Assembly (NCBI RefSeq): GCF_036227485.1 | Contig: NZ_CP109479.1 | Location: forward strand, 4,216,001 to 4,280,000 | DNA length: 64,000 nt | Reading direction: 5' to 3' | Source of the DNA: Streptomyces sp. NBC_01451 | Lineage (GTDB): Bacteria; Actinomycetota; Actinomycetes; Streptomycetales; Streptomycetaceae | In this document: positions 55,314 through 63,977 of the stretch, piece after piece | Layout: every line of letters begins with the position of its first letter | How positions within the stretch are numbered: the stretch's first letter is position 1 | The notes under the pieces: model-generated | The model's input: only the letters and a program-made list of their open reading frames with translations | What the model was told of the DNA's origin: nothing | Databases searched by the model: none | Translations under genes and position numbers: made by a program

Positions 55314-55616
55314 GGTCAGACCTCACCCCCCCAACCGGTGGAGGTGTGCGCCGGAACGCGTCGACCGCGGCCGAATGTATCTGTCCAACTGCCCTCTGCA
55401 ACAGGTCAGTCGGACGAGAAATCCGGGCACACCAGGTCAGTAAATATGCGGAGAATTCACGCGGATTCAGGGCAAGACGGGCCCCGCAAAGAGAACAAAA
55501 AACGCAAAAGGCCTGCACACTTTGGCTACTTCTCGTTGGGTGCGCGGCAGGAATTAATACGCGTGCGGCGAGCGAAGTGGTGCGGCTTCCCAAACTGTAC
55601 CGCGCTCAACCATACA

Positions 55617-55655
55617 GAATTGCCCCCTCCGCTTCTCTCACGGAGGGGGCAATTC
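55617..55655 (-). terminator. Perfect 15-bp hairpin terminator
   Basis: GAATTGCCCCCTCCG (55617-55631) pairs with CGGAGGGGGCAATTC (55641-55655) over a 9-base loop, 59 bases after the stop of the sulfur-carrier gene. A second small stem TCGGTAA/TTACCGA precedes it. Confidence 0.85.
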
Positions 55656-55713
55656 GATGAACTCTCGGTAATCGATGTTACCGACGGTTACTACTGGCCG
55701 GTATCAACGGGCC

Positions 55714-55989
55714 TCAGCCGCCGGCGACGGCCGGGATGATCGACACGCCCGCACCGTCCGGCGTCGCCGTCTCCAGCCCCTGCTCGAAGCGGACGTCGTC
55801 GTCGTTGACGTACACGTTGACGAAGCGCCGCAGCTTCCCCTGGTCGTCGAGCACCCGGGCGGCGATCCCGGTGTGGTTCTTCTCCAGATCGGCGATGACC
55901 TCGGCGAGGGTCCCGCCCTCGGCGGCCACCTCGGCCTGCCCACCGGTGTAGGTACGCAGAATGGTGGGGATGCGGACGGAAACGCTCAC
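55714..55989 (-). CDS. CysO-like ubiquitin-fold sulfur-carrier protein
   Basis: 91 residues with the beta-grasp fold of ThiS/MoaD/CysO and the essential C-terminal Gly-Gly (SIIPAVAGG), where a thiocarboxylate is formed. It resembles mycobacterial CysO through VRIPTILRTYTGGQAEVAA, ADLEKNHTGIAARVLDDQGK and RRFVNVYVNDDDVRFEQGLE. It follows the ThrC-like gene in the same direction (93-base gap), so it shares a transcription unit under the SAM riboswitch. It probably donates sulfur for methionine or cysteine synthesis. Confidence 0.9.
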   Translation of the reverse strand: MSVSVRIPTILRTYTGGQAEVAAEGGTLAEVIADLEKNHTGIAARVLDDQGKLRRFVNVYVNDDDVRFEQGLETATPDGAGVSIIPAVAGG

Positions 55990-56012
55990 GATGTGACCTC
56001 CGGTCAGGTGGA

Positions 56013-56056
56013 GCGCCCCAAAGGGGCGCGGGGAACTGCGCGACCAGCCCCCACCG
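56013..56056. repeat. Dispersed repeat family B, copy 1
   Basis: GCGCCCC-AAA-GGGGCGC palindrome followed by GGGGAACTGCGCGACCAGCC and CCCACCG. A 35-base stretch (56022-56056) is identical to the copy at 63943-63977. It sits between the ThrC-like stop and the sulfur-carrier start, and could reduce downstream expression. Confidence 0.8.
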
Positions 56057-56082
56057 GCGGCGCAGACGAACGACGACCTCTT

Positions 56083-57474
56083 TTAAGAAGCGAGCCCAGC
56101 CTCACGGAACGACTCAAGACTGGGCCGAATCGTCGCAGTCAGCCCGGTATCGGCCACCGCGTCCAACGTCTTCAGACCGTCACCGGTGTTCAGCACCACG
56201 GTCGTGAGGGTCGGGTCCAGCAGTCCGTTCTCGATCAGCTTCTTCGTGACACCCACGGTCACACCACCGGCGGTCTCCGCGAAGATCCCCTCCGTGCGGG
56301 CGAGCAGCCGGATCGCGTCGACCACCTGCTCGTCGTTCACGTCCTCCACCGCCCCGCCGGTCCGCCGCGCGATGTCCAGCACGTACGGCCCGTCCGCCGG
56401 GTTGCCGATCGCCAGGGACTTGGCGATGGTGTTGGGCTTCTGCGGCCGTACGACGTCGTGCCCGGCCTTGTAGGCCACGGACACCGGCGAGCAGCCCTCC
56501 GCCTGGGCGCCGAAGATCTTGTACGGCTTGTCGGCGACCAGCCCGAGCTTGATCAGCTCCTGGAGACCCTTGTCGATCTTCGTGAGCTGCGACCCGGAGG
56601 CGATGGGCACGACGAGCTGGTCGGGCAGCTGCCAGCCGAGCTGCTCGCAGATCTCGTACGCCAGGGTCTTGGAGCCCTCGGCGTAGTAGGGCCGCAGGTT
56701 GACGTTGACGAAGCCCCAGCCCTCGCCGGCCGGGTCGCCGATCAGCTCGGAGCAGAAGCGGTTCACGTCGTCGTAGTTGCCCTCGATGCCGACGAGCTCG
56801 CCGCCGTACACCGCGGCCATGACGACCTTGCCCTGCTCCAGGTCGTGCGGGATGAACACGCAGGAGCGGAAACCGGCCCGGGCGGCGGCGGCGCCGACGG
56901 CACCGGCCAGGTTGCCCGTGGAGGAGCAGGAGAGAGTGGTGAAGCCGAAGGCGCGGGCGGCCTCGATGGCCTGGGCGACGACCCGGTCCTTGAAGGAGTG
57001 CGTCGGGTTGCCGGAGTCGTCCTTGACGAAGAGCTTGCCGGCGTCGACACCCAGCTCGCGGGCGAGGTTGTCGGCCTGGACGAGCTTGGTCCAGCCGGGA
57101 TTGATGTTCGGCTTCTCGGCGACGTTCGCGGGGACGGGCAGAAGGGGCGCGTAGCGCCAGATGTTCGCGGGTCCCGCTTCGATGCGCTTGCGGAGTTCCT
57201 CGGTGTCGGCCGCCGAGTGGACGGCGAAGTCGTAGGCGATCTCCAGGGGGCCGAAACACTCCTCGCAGGCGAACACCGGACCGAGGGGGACGCGGTGGCC
57301 GCATTCGCGGCAGGACAGCGCCACGGCGGGGCCGAGATCAACGGAGGTGACGGAGTCAGTGGTGACGGAGCAGGACAGCGCCACGGCGGGGCCGAGATCA
57401 ACGGAGGTGACGGAGTCAGTGGTGACGGAGCCGGAAGTGGTGCTCTCGGTGCTCAGAGCAGTTTGCGCAGCCAT
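56083..57474 (-). CDS. thrC: Threonine-synthase-like PLP enzyme, SAM-riboswitch controlled; possibly homocysteine synthase
   Basis: 463 residues. A zinc-ribbon head (CRECGHRVPLGPVFACEECF) is followed by the PLP fold with Lys in NPTHSFKDRVVAQAIEAARA, SCSSTGNLAGAVGAAAARAG, VPIASGSQLTKIDKG and GVTVGVTKKLIENG. Family members take O-phosphohomoserine to threonine. Here a SAM-I riboswitch lies in its leader and a CysO-like sulfur carrier gene follows, arguing for sulfur metabolism. The N-terminus holds a perfect 60-base tandem duplication including the first zinc Cys segment (SVDLGPAVALSC twice). ATG 57474 follows GGAAAGGG. Confidence 0.85.
   Translation of the reverse strand: MAAQTALSTESTTSGSVTTDSVTSVDLGPAVALSCSVTTDSVTSVDLGPAVALSCRECGHRVPLGPVFACEECFGPLEIAYDFAVHSAADTEELRKRIEAGPANIWRYAPLLPVPANVAEKPNINPGWTKLVQADNLARELGVDAGKLFVKDDSGNPTHSFKDRVVAQAIEAARAFGFTTLSCSSTGNLAGAVGAAAARAGFRSCVFIPHDLEQGKVVMAAVYGGELVGIEGNYDDVNRFCSELIGDPAGEGWGFVNVNLRPYYAEGSKTLAYEICEQLGWQLPDQLVVPIASGSQLTKIDKGLQELIKLGLVADKPYKIFGAQAEGCSPVSVAYKAGHDVVRPQKPNTIAKSLAIGNPADGPYVLDIARRTGGAVEDVNDEQVVDAIRLLARTEGIFAETAGGVTVGVTKKLIENGLLDPTLTTVVLNTGDGLKTLDAVADTGLTATIRPSLESFREAGLAS
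57311..57430. repeat. Perfect 60-bp tandem duplication inside thrC
   Basis: Two identical 60-base units (57311-57370 and 57371-57430), in frame (20 codons), in the N-terminus of the ThrC-like gene. Each encodes SVDLGPAVALSC with the surrounding VTTDSVT, so the first zinc-ligand-type Cys is repeated. Lack of any mismatch implies a recent event or an assembly artefact. Confidence 0.95.
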
Positions 57475-57490
57475 GGAGGCGAAGCCCTTT

Positions 57491-57635
57491 CCTCATCTTT
57501 CTCACGACGCGTTTCGCCATGAGACGGATTTGGCACCTTCCCGAGCCGGGAACCTCGCCGCATGACCTGCGACAGGATCGGCTGGAGGGTTGCCGGGGCT
57601 TCATCGGGCCGTATCCCTCTGCCCCTCTGGATGAG
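57491..57635 (-). promoter_or_regulatory. SAM-I (S-box) riboswitch
   Basis: The minus-strand leader of the ThrC-like gene shows the S-box core in order: P1 CTCATC (57635-57630) with AGAGG, AGAGGGATACGGCCCG, ATGAAGCCCCGGCAACC, a variable hairpin, GGTGCCAAATCCGTC, GAAAGATGAGG closing P1 (57497-57491). The ribosome site GGAAAGGG directly overlaps or abuts the 3' P1 strand, pointing to translational shut-off when SAM binds. No clear terminator hairpin follows. Confidence 0.93.
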
Positions 57636-57801
57636 CGGTATGAAGTTGTGAGGTTGTGAACACCGATGACCTCGGACATGCGATGGTCACCCGCGTTGTT
57701 CAAGACTGTAACCGAAGGCTTGGATGGTGGTGGGAGCCGTCCGAACCGCGAGATAGAAGATCGCTCGCGCTTCCCCCATGGAACGCAAGGGAGAGCCGCA
57801 C

Positions 57802-58746
57802 GTGCTGGAAGACGTCGAGCGCTGGCTGAACACACGCTCCTGGTCCGTTGGCGACCGCCCCCTGAAGAAGATCGTGGCCGCGAAACGTTCCTCGAACGCC
57901 ACGGTGAGTGTCGTACTGCCCGCGCTCAACGAGGAGGAGACGGTCGGCGAGATCGTGGCCGTCATCCGTCGCGACCTGATGCTGAAGGTCCCGCTCGTCG
58001 ACGAGATCGTCGTCATCGACTCGGGATCGACCGACCGCACCTCCGAGGTGGCCGCCGCGGCGGGCGCCCGCGTCGTCCACCGCGACGACATCCTGCCGCG
58101 CATCCCTGCCGTGCCGGGCAAGGGCGAGGTGCTGTGGCGCTCTCTCCTGGTCACCAGCGGGGACATCGTCTGCTTCATCGACGCGGACCTGAAGGAGTTC
58201 TCGTCGGACTTCGTCTCCGGGATCGTGGGCCCGCTGCTCACGGACCCGGGTGTCGACCTCGTCAAGGCGATGTACGACCGTCCGCTCGGCCAGGCGGCCG
58301 GACAGGGCGGCCGGGTGACGGAACTCATGGCGCGGCCCCTCCTCAACATGCACTGGCCGCAGCTGGCCGGCTTCGTCCAGCCGCTCGGCGGCGAGTACGC
58401 GGCCCGCCGCTCGCTCCTCGAACAGCTCCCGTTCCCCGTCGGCTACGGCGTGGAGCTGGGCATGCTGATCGACTCCCTGCACCTGGTGGGCCTGGACGCG
58501 TTGGCGCAGGTCGACGTGGGTGTGCGCAAGCACCGCCACCAGGACGGCCGCGCCCTGGGCCGGATGTCCGCCGCGATCTACCGCACCGCGCAGCTCCGGC
58601 TGGCCCGGGGCCATCTGATCCGCCCCTCGATCACTCAGTTCGAGCGCGGGGAGGACGGTTTCGAGCCGCGCACGTACTCGGTGGACACGGAGGAACGGCC
58701 GCCGATGGCGGACGTCGCGGAGTACGCGAGGAGGAAGGTCGCGTAG
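57802..58746 (+). CDS. gpgS: Glucosyl-3-phosphoglycerate synthase
   Basis: 314 residues; a GT2/GT81-type transferase making glucosyl-3-phosphoglycerate, the first step to glucosylglycerate or methylglucose polysaccharides. Motifs are VSVVLPALNEEETVGEIVAV, VVIDSGSTDRT, GKGEVLWRSLLVTSGDIVCF, the metal site FIDADLKEF and FVQPLGGEYAARRSLLEQL. The GTG at 57802 has GGGAGA at 7 bases; ATG 57778 lacks one. It precedes otsA in the same direction; both supply osmolyte-type sugars. Confidence 0.92.
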   Translation: MLEDVERWLNTRSWSVGDRPLKKIVAAKRSSNATVSVVLPALNEEETVGEIVAVIRRDLMLKVPLVDEIVVIDSGSTDRTSEVAAAAGARVVHRDDILPRIPAVPGKGEVLWRSLLVTSGDIVCFIDADLKEFSSDFVSGIVGPLLTDPGVDLVKAMYDRPLGQAAGQGGRVTELMARPLLNMHWPQLAGFVQPLGGEYAARRSLLEQLPFPVGYGVELGMLIDSLHLVGLDALAQVDVGVRKHRHQDGRALGRMSAAIYRTAQLRLARGHLIRPSITQFERGEDGFEPRTYSVDTEERPPMADVAEYARRKVA

Positions 58747-58800
58747 GCCGGCACAGCTCCGGTGCGGGTTCGTATACGGCTGATGCGTACGTGTGTACGT

Positions 58801-58827
58801 TTGAGCTTTTACGGGCCGGGCTAGGTT
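58801..58827 (+). promoter_or_regulatory. Promoter of otsA, leaderless
   Basis: TTGAGC (58801-58806) and TAGGTT (58822-58827) at 15-base spacing, with the otsA ATG 7 bases after the -10. No ribosome site is present, consistent with a leaderless message. Confidence 0.55.
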
Positions 58828-58834
58828 GAGCCCT

Positions 58835-60244
58835 ATGGCTTCGACGCATGGTGTGCAGAGTGGTCCGGGCGGATACCGAGTGCTGGTCGCGTCCAACCGC
58901 GGCCCGGTCACGTACGAGGTCCGTGAGGACGGCTCGCTGCACGCCCGGCGCGGCGGTGGCGGGCTGGTCTCCGGTCTGTCGGCGATCGGGTCGGACGCGG
59001 ACTCCCTGTGGGTCTGCTCCGCCCTCGGCGACGGCGACCGCGAGGCCGTCCGGCGCGGGGAGGCCGAGGCGGGCGTACGGATGCTCGACATCCCGGCCGA
59101 CGTGCACGCCGACGCGTACAACGGCATCGCGAACTCCGTGCTGTGGTTCGTGAACCACATGCTGTACCAGACCCCGCTGGAGCCGGTCTTCGACGCGGAG
59201 TTCCGGCGCCAGTGGGCGTCGTACGAGGCCTACAACCGCGCGTTCGCCCAGGCGCTGGCGGCGGAGGCGGCCGAGGGCGCGTCGGTGGTGGTCCAGGACT
59301 ACCACCTGTGCCTGGTCCCCGGGATGCTCCGCTCCCTCCGCCCCGACCTCCGCATCGGCCACTTCTCGCACACACCGTGGGCACCGGCGGACTACTTCCG
59401 GATGCTGCCGTACGACATCTCCGAGCAGCTCCTGCGCGGCATGCTCGGCGCGGACCGCCTCGGTTTCCTCACCCGCAGGTGGGCGGACGCGTTCACCGCC
59501 TGCTGCACGGACCTGGTCGGCGGGGTCGGCGACACGCGGATCGGGGTGCACGGGCTGGGCGCGGACGCGGACTTCCTGCGCGGGCGCGCGCACCAGCCGG
59601 ACGTCGAGGAGCGGATGGCCGCCCTGCGCGAGGAGATCGGCGGCAGCGACCGCAAGACGATCGTGCGGGTGGACCGTACCGAGCTGTCGAAGAACATCGT
59701 GCGGGGCCTGCTGGCCTACCGGCAGCTGCTGGAGGACCGCCCGGAGTGGCGGGAGCGGGTCGTGCACGTCGCGTTCGCCTACCCCTCCCGGCAGGACCTC
59801 GCCGTCTACCGCGACTACACGGCCGAGGTCCAGCGGGTGGCGGACGACATCAACAAGACGTACGGAACAGCGACCTGGACCCCGGTCGTCCTCCACGTCA
59901 AGGACGACTTCGCCCGCTCCCTGGCCGCCTACCGCCTCGCCGACGTGGCCCTCGTCAACCCCATCCGCGACGGCATGAACCTCGTCGCCAAGGAGATCCC
60001 GGTGGTCTCCGACGAGGGGTGCGCGCTGGTGCTGTCGCGGGAGGCGGGGGCGTACGAGGAGCTGGGCGAGGACGCGATCGTGGTGAACCCGTACGACGTG
60101 ACGCAGACGGCGCGGGCGCTGGAGGAGGCGCTGAACATGGGGGCCGGCGAACGGGCGGAGCGCACGAAGCGGCTGGCCGCGGCGGCGACCGCGCTGCCGC
60201 CGGCCCAGTGGTTCCTGGACCAGCTGAACGCGCTCAGCGACTGA
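58835..60244 (+). CDS. otsA: Trehalose-6-phosphate synthase
   Basis: 469-residue GT20 glycosyltransferase. Landmarks are VLVASNRGPVTYEVREDGSL, VQDYHLCLVPGMLRSLRPDL, IGHFSHTPWAP, RVDRTELSKNIVRGLLAYRQ, YRLADVALVNPIRDGMNLVA and KEIPVVSDEGCALVLSREAG. It makes trehalose-6-phosphate from nucleotide-glucose and glucose-6-phosphate. The stop overlaps the convergent otsB gene by 11 bases. It stands after gpgS, with its own promoter-like box. Confidence 0.93.
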   Translation: MASTHGVQSGPGGYRVLVASNRGPVTYEVREDGSLHARRGGGGLVSGLSAIGSDADSLWVCSALGDGDREAVRRGEAEAGVRMLDIPADVHADAYNGIANSVLWFVNHMLYQTPLEPVFDAEFRRQWASYEAYNRAFAQALAAEAAEGASVVVQDYHLCLVPGMLRSLRPDLRIGHFSHTPWAPADYFRMLPYDISEQLLRGMLGADRLGFLTRRWADAFTACCTDLVGGVGDTRIGVHGLGADADFLRGRAHQPDVEERMAALREEIGGSDRKTIVRVDRTELSKNIVRGLLAYRQLLEDRPEWRERVVHVAFAYPSRQDLAVYRDYTAEVQRVADDINKTYGTATWTPVVLHVKDDFARSLAAYRLADVALVNPIRDGMNLVAKEIPVVSDEGCALVLSREAGAYEELGEDAIVVNPYDVTQTARALEEALNMGAGERAERTKRLAAAATALPPAQWFLDQLNALSD

Positions 60245-61079
60245 CGACCGCCCGGCCGAGGGCCGTCAGCAGCTGTACGACACCTGCGGGGCCGTCGACG
60301 ACCAGGTCGGCGCGTTCCGCCAGTTCCGTCACCGCCTCGGTGCTGTTGCCGCTGCACACCAGCAGGCCCGGGACGCCGTTCTGGCGGAGCTTCTCCACCG
60401 CCGCGAACGCCGGGAGGTCGCCGAGGTCGTCGCCGGCGTAGAGGACCGAGGTGGCGCCGGTCTCGCGGAGGTACTTCTCCAGGGCGACGCCCTTGTCCAT
60501 GCCGGGCGGGCGCAGCTCCAGCACGAAGCGCCCGGGTTCGACGATCAGACCGTGTCCGGTCGCCAGGTCGGCGAGGGGCTCGCGCAGGGCCTCGAACGCG
60601 GCCTGCGGGTCCGCCGCGCGCCGGGTGTGCACGGCGAGGGCCCGGCCCTTCTCCTCGATCCAGGTGCCCTGCCAGGCACCGAACCGTTCGAGGAACCCGG
60701 GGAGTTCGGCGCGGACGGCGGCGACGCCGGGGTGCGGGGCGGGGGCGCTGACCGTGCCGGTCACGGCGTCCCAGCGTTCGGTGCCGTAGTGGCCCAGGAC
60801 GACGAGGTGCTCCAGACCGGGCACTCCGGCGAAACCGCCGTGCCGGACGGCGACACCGGCGGGGCGGCCGGTGAGGACGGCGACGGATGCGACGAGAGGG
60901 GCGAGGGCGGAGAGTGCGGGGAGGCTGTCGGGGTGGGCGCGGGCCTGCTCGGGGTCGGCGACGATCGGAGCGAGGGTCCCGTCGAAGTCGAGGACGACGA
61001 CGGCGCCGGCGGGCCGGGCAAGGATGGCATCCAGCCCGTCCCGGCCGGCCTGCGTCACGGGCGTGGGCAACGAGTCCAT
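60234..61079 (-). CDS. otsB: Trehalose-6-phosphate phosphatase
   Basis: 281-residue HAD enzyme that converts trehalose-6-phosphate to trehalose. HAD motifs are VVVLDFDGTLAPIVADPEQA (motif I), VLTGRP (motif II), KGVALEKYLRETG (motif III) and LYAGDDLGDLPAFAAVEKLR (motif IV). The cap domain holds YGTERWDAVTG. It completes the pathway with convergent otsA. The start ATG at 61079 is in a weakly marked context. Confidence 0.93.
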   Translation of the reverse strand: MDSLPTPVTQAGRDGLDAILARPAGAVVVLDFDGTLAPIVADPEQARAHPDSLPALSALAPLVASVAVLTGRPAGVAVRHGGFAGVPGLEHLVVLGHYGTERWDAVTGTVSAPAPHPGVAAVRAELPGFLERFGAWQGTWIEEKGRALAVHTRRAADPQAAFEALREPLADLATGHGLIVEPGRFVLELRPPGMDKGVALEKYLRETGATSVLYAGDDLGDLPAFAAVEKLRQNGVPGLLVCSGNSTEAVTELAERADLVVDGPAGVVQLLTALGRAVVSR

Positions 61080-63942: not shown

Positions 63943-63977
63943 AGGGGCGCGGGGAACTGCGCGACCAGCCCCCACCG
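63943..63977. repeat. Dispersed repeat family B, copy 2
   Basis: 35 bases (AGGGGCGCGGGGAACTGCGC, then GACCAGCCCCCACCG) identical to 56022-56056. It starts 14 bases after the nagK stop. A frame from ATG 63928 reads through it to the window edge and was not annotated. Confidence 0.85.

Follow-up and report, generated by a model that had tools for sequence, protein, structure and literature searches.

Within the 64-kb stretch of Streptomyces DNA that we analyzed (the window), a SAM-I (S-box) riboswitch is followed on the minus strand by a PLP enzyme of the ThrC fold, a ubiquitin-like carrier and a 16-bp hairpin, in this order (Table 1). An earlier note on this DNA had claimed an S-box leader, a ThrC-fold enzyme and a ubiquitin-like carrier with a Gly-Gly end, all pointing in one direction, and each of these elements was recovered: the leader as an RF00162 match in an Rfam scan of the window (ending 2 bases beyond the limit given in that note), the enzyme as a reading frame with PF00291 and TIGR00260 matches, and the carrier as a reading frame with a PF02597 match and the end PAVAGG. 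We refer to the two genes as metM and metO. Next to the unit, at 57778-61079 of the window, lie genes for a glucosyl-3-phosphoglycerate synthase, an OtsA-like protein and a trehalose-phosphatase, the first of them divergent from metM.

Table 1. Features of the metM-metO locus, in window coordinates.
Feature	Position	Strand	Basis
SAM-I (S-box) riboswitch aptamer, metM leader	57490..57637	-	cmscan, RF00162
metM, PLP enzyme of ThrC fold (PLP lysine K162 by alignment)	56083..57474	-	ORF, PF00291, alignment to solved threonine synthases
Tandem duplication of 60 bp, perfect, in the metM coding start	57310..57429	-	sequence repeat
metM-metO spacer, 93 nt, with GCGCCCC/GGGGCGC hairpin repeat	55990..56082	-	repeat search
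metO, ubiquitin-like sulfur carrier with Gly-Gly end	55714..55989	-	ORF, PF02597
16-bp hairpin after metO (probable end of transcript)	55617..55655	-	folding

Riboswitch, enzyme and carrier

The leader covers all 108 model positions (1-108) of RF00162 and scores 77.6 bits (gathering score 44.4; E 1.6e-16), which places it in the SAM-I class. It is the sole Rfam match at the gathering threshold in the window and the sole SAM-I match reported genome-wide by a search with stricter filters that scored 12 of 614 first-look candidates. Because the aptamer lies so near to the start codon, with 15 nt between its end (57490) and the metM ATG (57474), and no terminator-like site was seen on this strand, the riboswitch likely controls metM at the level of translation, as far as layout alone can indicate. 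A transcription terminator in the leader was rejected on the same two grounds, the second of them weak evidence: the consensus scan of 55400-57850 returned no site on the minus strand and 2 sites on the plus strand (1.3 expected in shuffles), but a run of T is among its requirements, and the 16-bp hairpin behind metO escaped it as well. In a folding test, leaving out P1 made an AAAGGG-type site (defined by a regular expression of our own) more exposed in 103 of 107 leaders, whereas the window's own leader behaved in the opposite way (exposure 0.68 with P1 and 0.51 without). The modelled folds would thus lend translational control weak backing among the leaders compared and none in the window's own, and given the opposite direction seen there we claim no switching mechanism. 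A narrow leader pattern had retrieved 79 of 130 leaders and was replaced by a wider search that retrieved 108 of 110. The element on metM need not be the sole control of methionine metabolism here, since further leaders linked to SAM or methionine occur in S. lividans, among them a SAM-IV element before a cysteine desulfurase as well as metH and metK RNA motifs (PMC8079986). According to an excerpt of PMC4365011, streptomycetes are without a SAM riboswitch at metE, metH and metK.

MetM (463 aa from an ATG) is clearly of the ThrC fold as judged from its sequence, matching PF00291 with an E-value of 5.4e-65 and the NCBI thrC model TIGR00260 with 264.2 bits against a cut-off of 167.1, and it has the PLP lysine and core motifs in common with the solved threonine synthases to which it was aligned. 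These matches would also suit the name given in databases, with the enzyme as a second threonine synthase and the adjacent carrier working for cysteine or some other pathway: of the 120 best homologues listed, every named one is called threonine synthase, and a cyanobacterial homologue that is 51.6% identical to the Streptomyces protein makes threonine (PMC12172450). The active-site motifs, unlike those of ThrC at positions that are near-invariant in the MetM group, argue against this explanation. The alignment has 85 positions at which 127 or more of the 129 MetM proteins share a residue that is not the one in the genome's own ThrC; this was the one ThrC in the alignment, and the solved ThrC chains agree at the motifs named here (the 130th MetM protein, L148, was left out with its motif outside the filter). 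From ThrC to MetM, R161 changes to Tyr, T89 to Leu, G188-N189-A190 to Ala-Ser-Gly and G59, near the PLP lysine, to His; at the level of motifs, NSVNPVRIEGQKT becomes N-LRPYYAEGSKT, GNAGN becomes ASGSQ and STGNT becomes STGNL, with the PLP lysine kept. These differences would be in keeping with a nucleophile that has changed from water to a bulky carrier. MetM further has an N-terminal CxxC...CxxC stretch that is absent from the genome's own ThrC, and immediately ahead of this motif the tandem duplication adds 20 amino acids in the protein studied here, 1 of 129, with none seen in the other 128 compared.

MetO comprises 91 amino acids from a GTG and belongs to the ThiS family of carriers (PF02597, E 1.2e-16). 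A ThiS/MoaD-type protein with a C-terminal Gly-Gly is thereby encoded beside the enzyme, as is reported for the published MetM/MetO pair. Its closest solved structures are 3dwg_C and 4n6e_B, the former aligned over the whole length with 62.6% identity (E 1.4e-30) and entered as '9.5 kDa culture filtrate antigen cfp10A', which we take to be M. tuberculosis CysO. To the genome's own CysO, MetO is likewise 62.6% identical. The spacer between the genes folds in an ordinary way (z -0.67). Two exact copies of GCGCAGTTCCCCGCGCCCCT lie in the window, at 56022-56041 and 63943-63962, with 0.02 expected by chance at up to 3 mismatches, and this dispersed repeat or its hairpin precedes metO in 28 of 99 placed loci. 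The hairpin behind metO is the probable end of the transcript: the 76 nt around it fold with -38.2 kcal/mol (z -6.1), and among the 99 loci that our script placed out of 110 tried, 97 have a stem of at least 11 bp within 150 nt 3' of metO, compared with 7 of 63 random pieces.

Genomic setting and proposed route to homocysteine

The genome, a single 10.27-Mb contig that is 99.74% complete, holds a canonical thrC between hom and thrB at 2.80-2.81 Mb, as the earlier note had expected; the case that it had named against its own reading, a genome with no other thrC, does not hold. MetM is 36% identical to this protein and is a ThrC-fold PLP enzyme separate from it, the place between hom and thrB being occupied by the other gene. 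The hom-thrC-thrB cluster also speaks against a second threonine synthase, as do the SAM riboswitch found in every MetM genome that we sampled (see below) and the other CysO-like carrier that adjoins the cysteine-synthase gene; we consider that explanation extremely improbable. A third ThrC-like protein (L003:1450-2610, 386 aa) is unlinked and does not reach the cut-off of any threonine synthase model listed.

MetA, searched in this genome alone, gave no match, and MetX gave no full-length match here, with only 24.6 bits over a short piece. Two long matches to Cys/Met PLP enzymes were obtained, one above the cystathionine gamma-synthase and one above the cystathionine gamma-lyase cut-off. Plant transsulfuration starts from O-phosphohomoserine, and homocysteine might be made mainly in this plant-like manner, with MetM as a side route, if the MetB/CGL-like protein L006 (684.2 bits on the cystathionine gamma-synthase model, cut-off 513) used that substrate. 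We rate this as very improbable, given that a full cystathionine beta-synthase (CBS; L165, 708.5 bits, cut-off 510.25) makes reverse transsulfuration the simpler role for L006 and that the one SAM-I match reported for the genome sits on metM; because CBS is present, the MetB/CGL-like enzymes can be read as reverse transsulfuration. L004, near L006, was rejected as a cystathionine beta-synthase, as it resembles threonine ammonia-lyase. MetM is the only direct homocysteine route that we found in this genome.

The genome encodes four carriers: MetO, one CysO-like protein and, at 7.32 and 4.36 Mb, a further two that are taken to be putative ThiS and MoaD. Since the CysO-like carrier adjoins the cysteine-synthase gene at 6.08 Mb, in a separate cysO-cysM cluster, MetO is not the sole carrier of this kind and is not the one placed beside cysM. 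The CysO-like protein (L005:1152-1508) ends in Gly-Gly-Met-Ala and would need trimming to expose its Gly-Gly; Mec-like proteases trim such carriers. By eye, the reading frame upstream of it appears Mec-like. A MoeZ-like activating enzyme is also encoded (L167, of which a 235-aa piece was scanned).

Taken together, we are confident that riboswitch, enzyme and carrier form a further copy of the published MetM/MetO homocysteine-forming system. In the proposed route, a MoeZ-type enzyme would activate MetO to a C-terminal thiocarboxylate, while MetM would take O-phosphohomoserine, which is made by ThrB and common to threonine synthesis, and eliminate its phosphate; the sulfur borne by MetO would then attack the resulting PLP-bound intermediate to give homocysteine, to be methylated to methionine. 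The riboswitch would turn the pair down when SAM is plentiful and in this way set the share of O-phosphohomoserine that goes to methionine. The identity of the pair as MetM and MetO rests on strong circumstantial evidence, and we infer its substrate, sulfur transfer and product by analogy to the published proteins. The central proposal of the earlier note, homocysteine from O-phosphohomoserine and carrier-thiocarboxylate sulfur, is thus supported by genome content as well as by class-wide conservation of riboswitch and carrier, with the chemistry itself predicted from that analogy.

Conservation in Streptomyces and across the class

Of 129 loci searched by tblastn, 126 have a carrier gene on the strand of metM and within 1 kb 3' of it, comprising 109/109 from the Streptomyces sets (where L069 has just the title 'Actinobacteria bacterium') and 17 of 20 loci from 14 families, 1 of the 20 being from the window's own genus. 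This search replaced a pattern search that had found metO in 76 of 110 loci with at least 2 false calls (L045 and L055). With metO start codons chosen by a length rule, an exact 4-nt overlap of metM and metO occurs in 29 of 110 Streptomyces loci (the window counted among the 110) and in 6 of the 16 remaining ones, a sign of translational coupling. The overlaps together with a transcript entry from S. lividans (PMC8079986) would indicate cotranscription of the two genes in relatives, which do not bear out the lack of cotranscription that the earlier note had named as part of a further case against its reading. This tight linkage bears on whether the enzyme might make homocysteine from free sulfide with the neighboring carrier working mainly elsewhere, as might be suggested by the three loci (L136, L137 and L142) without metO downstream of metM in the tblastn search. 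Adjacency in all other loci, the recurrent overlaps and the use of MetO thiocarboxylate that was reportedly seen with MetM in vitro count against free sulfide, which we regard as quite improbable. In L136 and L137, metM is followed instead by a reading frame that by eye looks cold-shock-like, with a GroEL-like start after it in L136.

We further compared 296 genomes of the actinomycete class, which are related to each other so that Fisher p-values overstate their independence. A wide gap separated genomes with MetM (E-values of 3.8e-115 or better) from those without (3.1e-68 or worse), giving 189 with and 107 without. A SAM-I riboswitch was found in all 189 MetM genomes and in 12 of the 107 MetM-less ones, using stricter filters and 12 scored candidates per genome, so weak riboswitches in the latter may be missed. 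In 123/123 genomes with both positions among the matches listed, SAM-I lies directly upstream of metM on the same strand, its distance to the point where the metM match begins ranging from -45 to +86 nt.

The 12 exceptions hold 16 riboswitch matches, and for 9 of these the next open frame was scanned. One is the N-terminal part of a MetM-like protein cut short at the end of a contig (L149), so that its genome (G293), counted as MetM-less, probably belongs with the MetM genomes. Of the others, L150 is a cystathionine gamma-synthase (560.2 bits, cut-off 504.55), L158 resembles MetF, L155 weakly matches methionine synthase (77.9 bits, cut-off 406), L156 resembles nitrite/sulfite reductase, L151 and L154 are ABC ATPases with an aliphatic-sulfonate model as best match, L153 is a binding protein of the peptide/nickel type and L152 is a frame without family match; five of the nine are methionine or sulfur genes and two more may be. 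In G250, which lacks MetM and is negative for MetX, the riboswitch precedes L150, another methionine-route gene in the riboswitch's place.

Since none of the 296 genomes or 14 controls (Corynebacterium glutamicum included) reached the 500-bit family cut-off for MetX, we split genomes by E-value into positive (3.6e-93 or better) and negative (8.5e-9 or worse, or no match), keeping 8 intermediate ones (1e-25 to 1e-48) apart. MetM is present in 95 of 100 MetX-negative genomes and MetX in 101 of 107 MetM-less ones; both occur in 87 of the 189 MetM genomes, and MetM is therefore not always the sole route. Within the genus, MetM is found in 31/31 genomes with one strong match listed in each, while MetX is clear in 7, negative in 23 and intermediate in 1. 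Because of this uniform presence of MetM in the genus and the shared layout, orthology to MetM of S. albulus is likely.

Our results go slightly beyond what has been published in tying SAM-I to metM across the class, in the MetM loci without metO and in the duplication seen here alone. As a tentative and on balance rather unlikely extension, SAM-I might in effect be a metM element across the class and the main valve for O-phosphohomoserine between threonine and methionine, and some lineages might have dropped metO and run MetM on another carrier such as CysO, with one carrier then serving both cysteine and methionine.

Comparison with known systems

MetM with thiocarboxylated MetO reportedly converts O-phospho-L-homoserine to homocysteine, and metO is said to be the next gene after metM in S. 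albulus. The ThrC-like enzyme that the earlier note half-remembered from Streptomyces does exist: it is MetM, the Streptomyces homocysteine synthase of Hasebe et al. 2024 (Appl Environ Microbiol 90:e01247-24, as cited in PMC12172450). The same source mentions that metM of S. albulus has a SAM riboswitch upstream and names the metO of this species, so that ThrC-like enzyme, upstream riboswitch and carrier are all alike at our locus; the copy here differs in its 20-aa duplication ahead of the CxxC motif and in that its activity is predicted. The system itself is already known in print and we do not claim novelty for the route, so the value of our analysis lies in confirmation and breadth. A database 'threonine synthase' is very probably a methionine-route enzyme here and, by orthology, in 189 of 296 actinomycete genomes sampled. 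If true, this explains the homocysteine supply of Streptomyces without MetX (the 23 negative genomes of the genus) and corrects metabolic models. MetM is also the obvious candidate for organisms that lack a known homocysteine route, which include Acidimicrobium ferrooxidans (PMC5764234, PLoS Genet 2018).

A likely counterpart has been recorded in S. lividans TK24, where '(SAM)-SLIV_16930-SLIV_16925' appears in Table 3 of affected transcripts among RNA-seq-validated elements, that is, as an RF00162 leader before two genes as here (PMC8079986). From this we infer that SLIV_16930 and SLIV_16925 are metM and metO. The entry is filed under 'Threonine biosynthesis' and itself gives no methionine link; 21 of 22 elements were transcribed, the passage reporting this leaving the remaining one unnamed (PMC8079986).

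Canonical ThrC has the fold, the PLP lysine and the S/T-T-G-N and T-G-x-G-L-K motifs of MetM, which differs by its added CxxC...CxxC stretch and by the R161-to-Tyr and GNAGN-to-ASGSQ changes. CysO in turn has the carrier fold of MetO and a PAVAGG motif near its end, but the genome's own CysO adjoins a cysteine-synthase gene and continues past the Gly-Gly at which MetO stops; the CysO cysteine pathway has the gene order mec-cysO-cysM. Another protein-thiocarboxylate system for methionine synthesis works with an acyl-homoserine and a MetY-type enzyme, unlike the O-phosphohomoserine and ThrC fold of MetM/MetO. The use of a thiocarboxylate is what the two have in common (system cited in PMC6225789).
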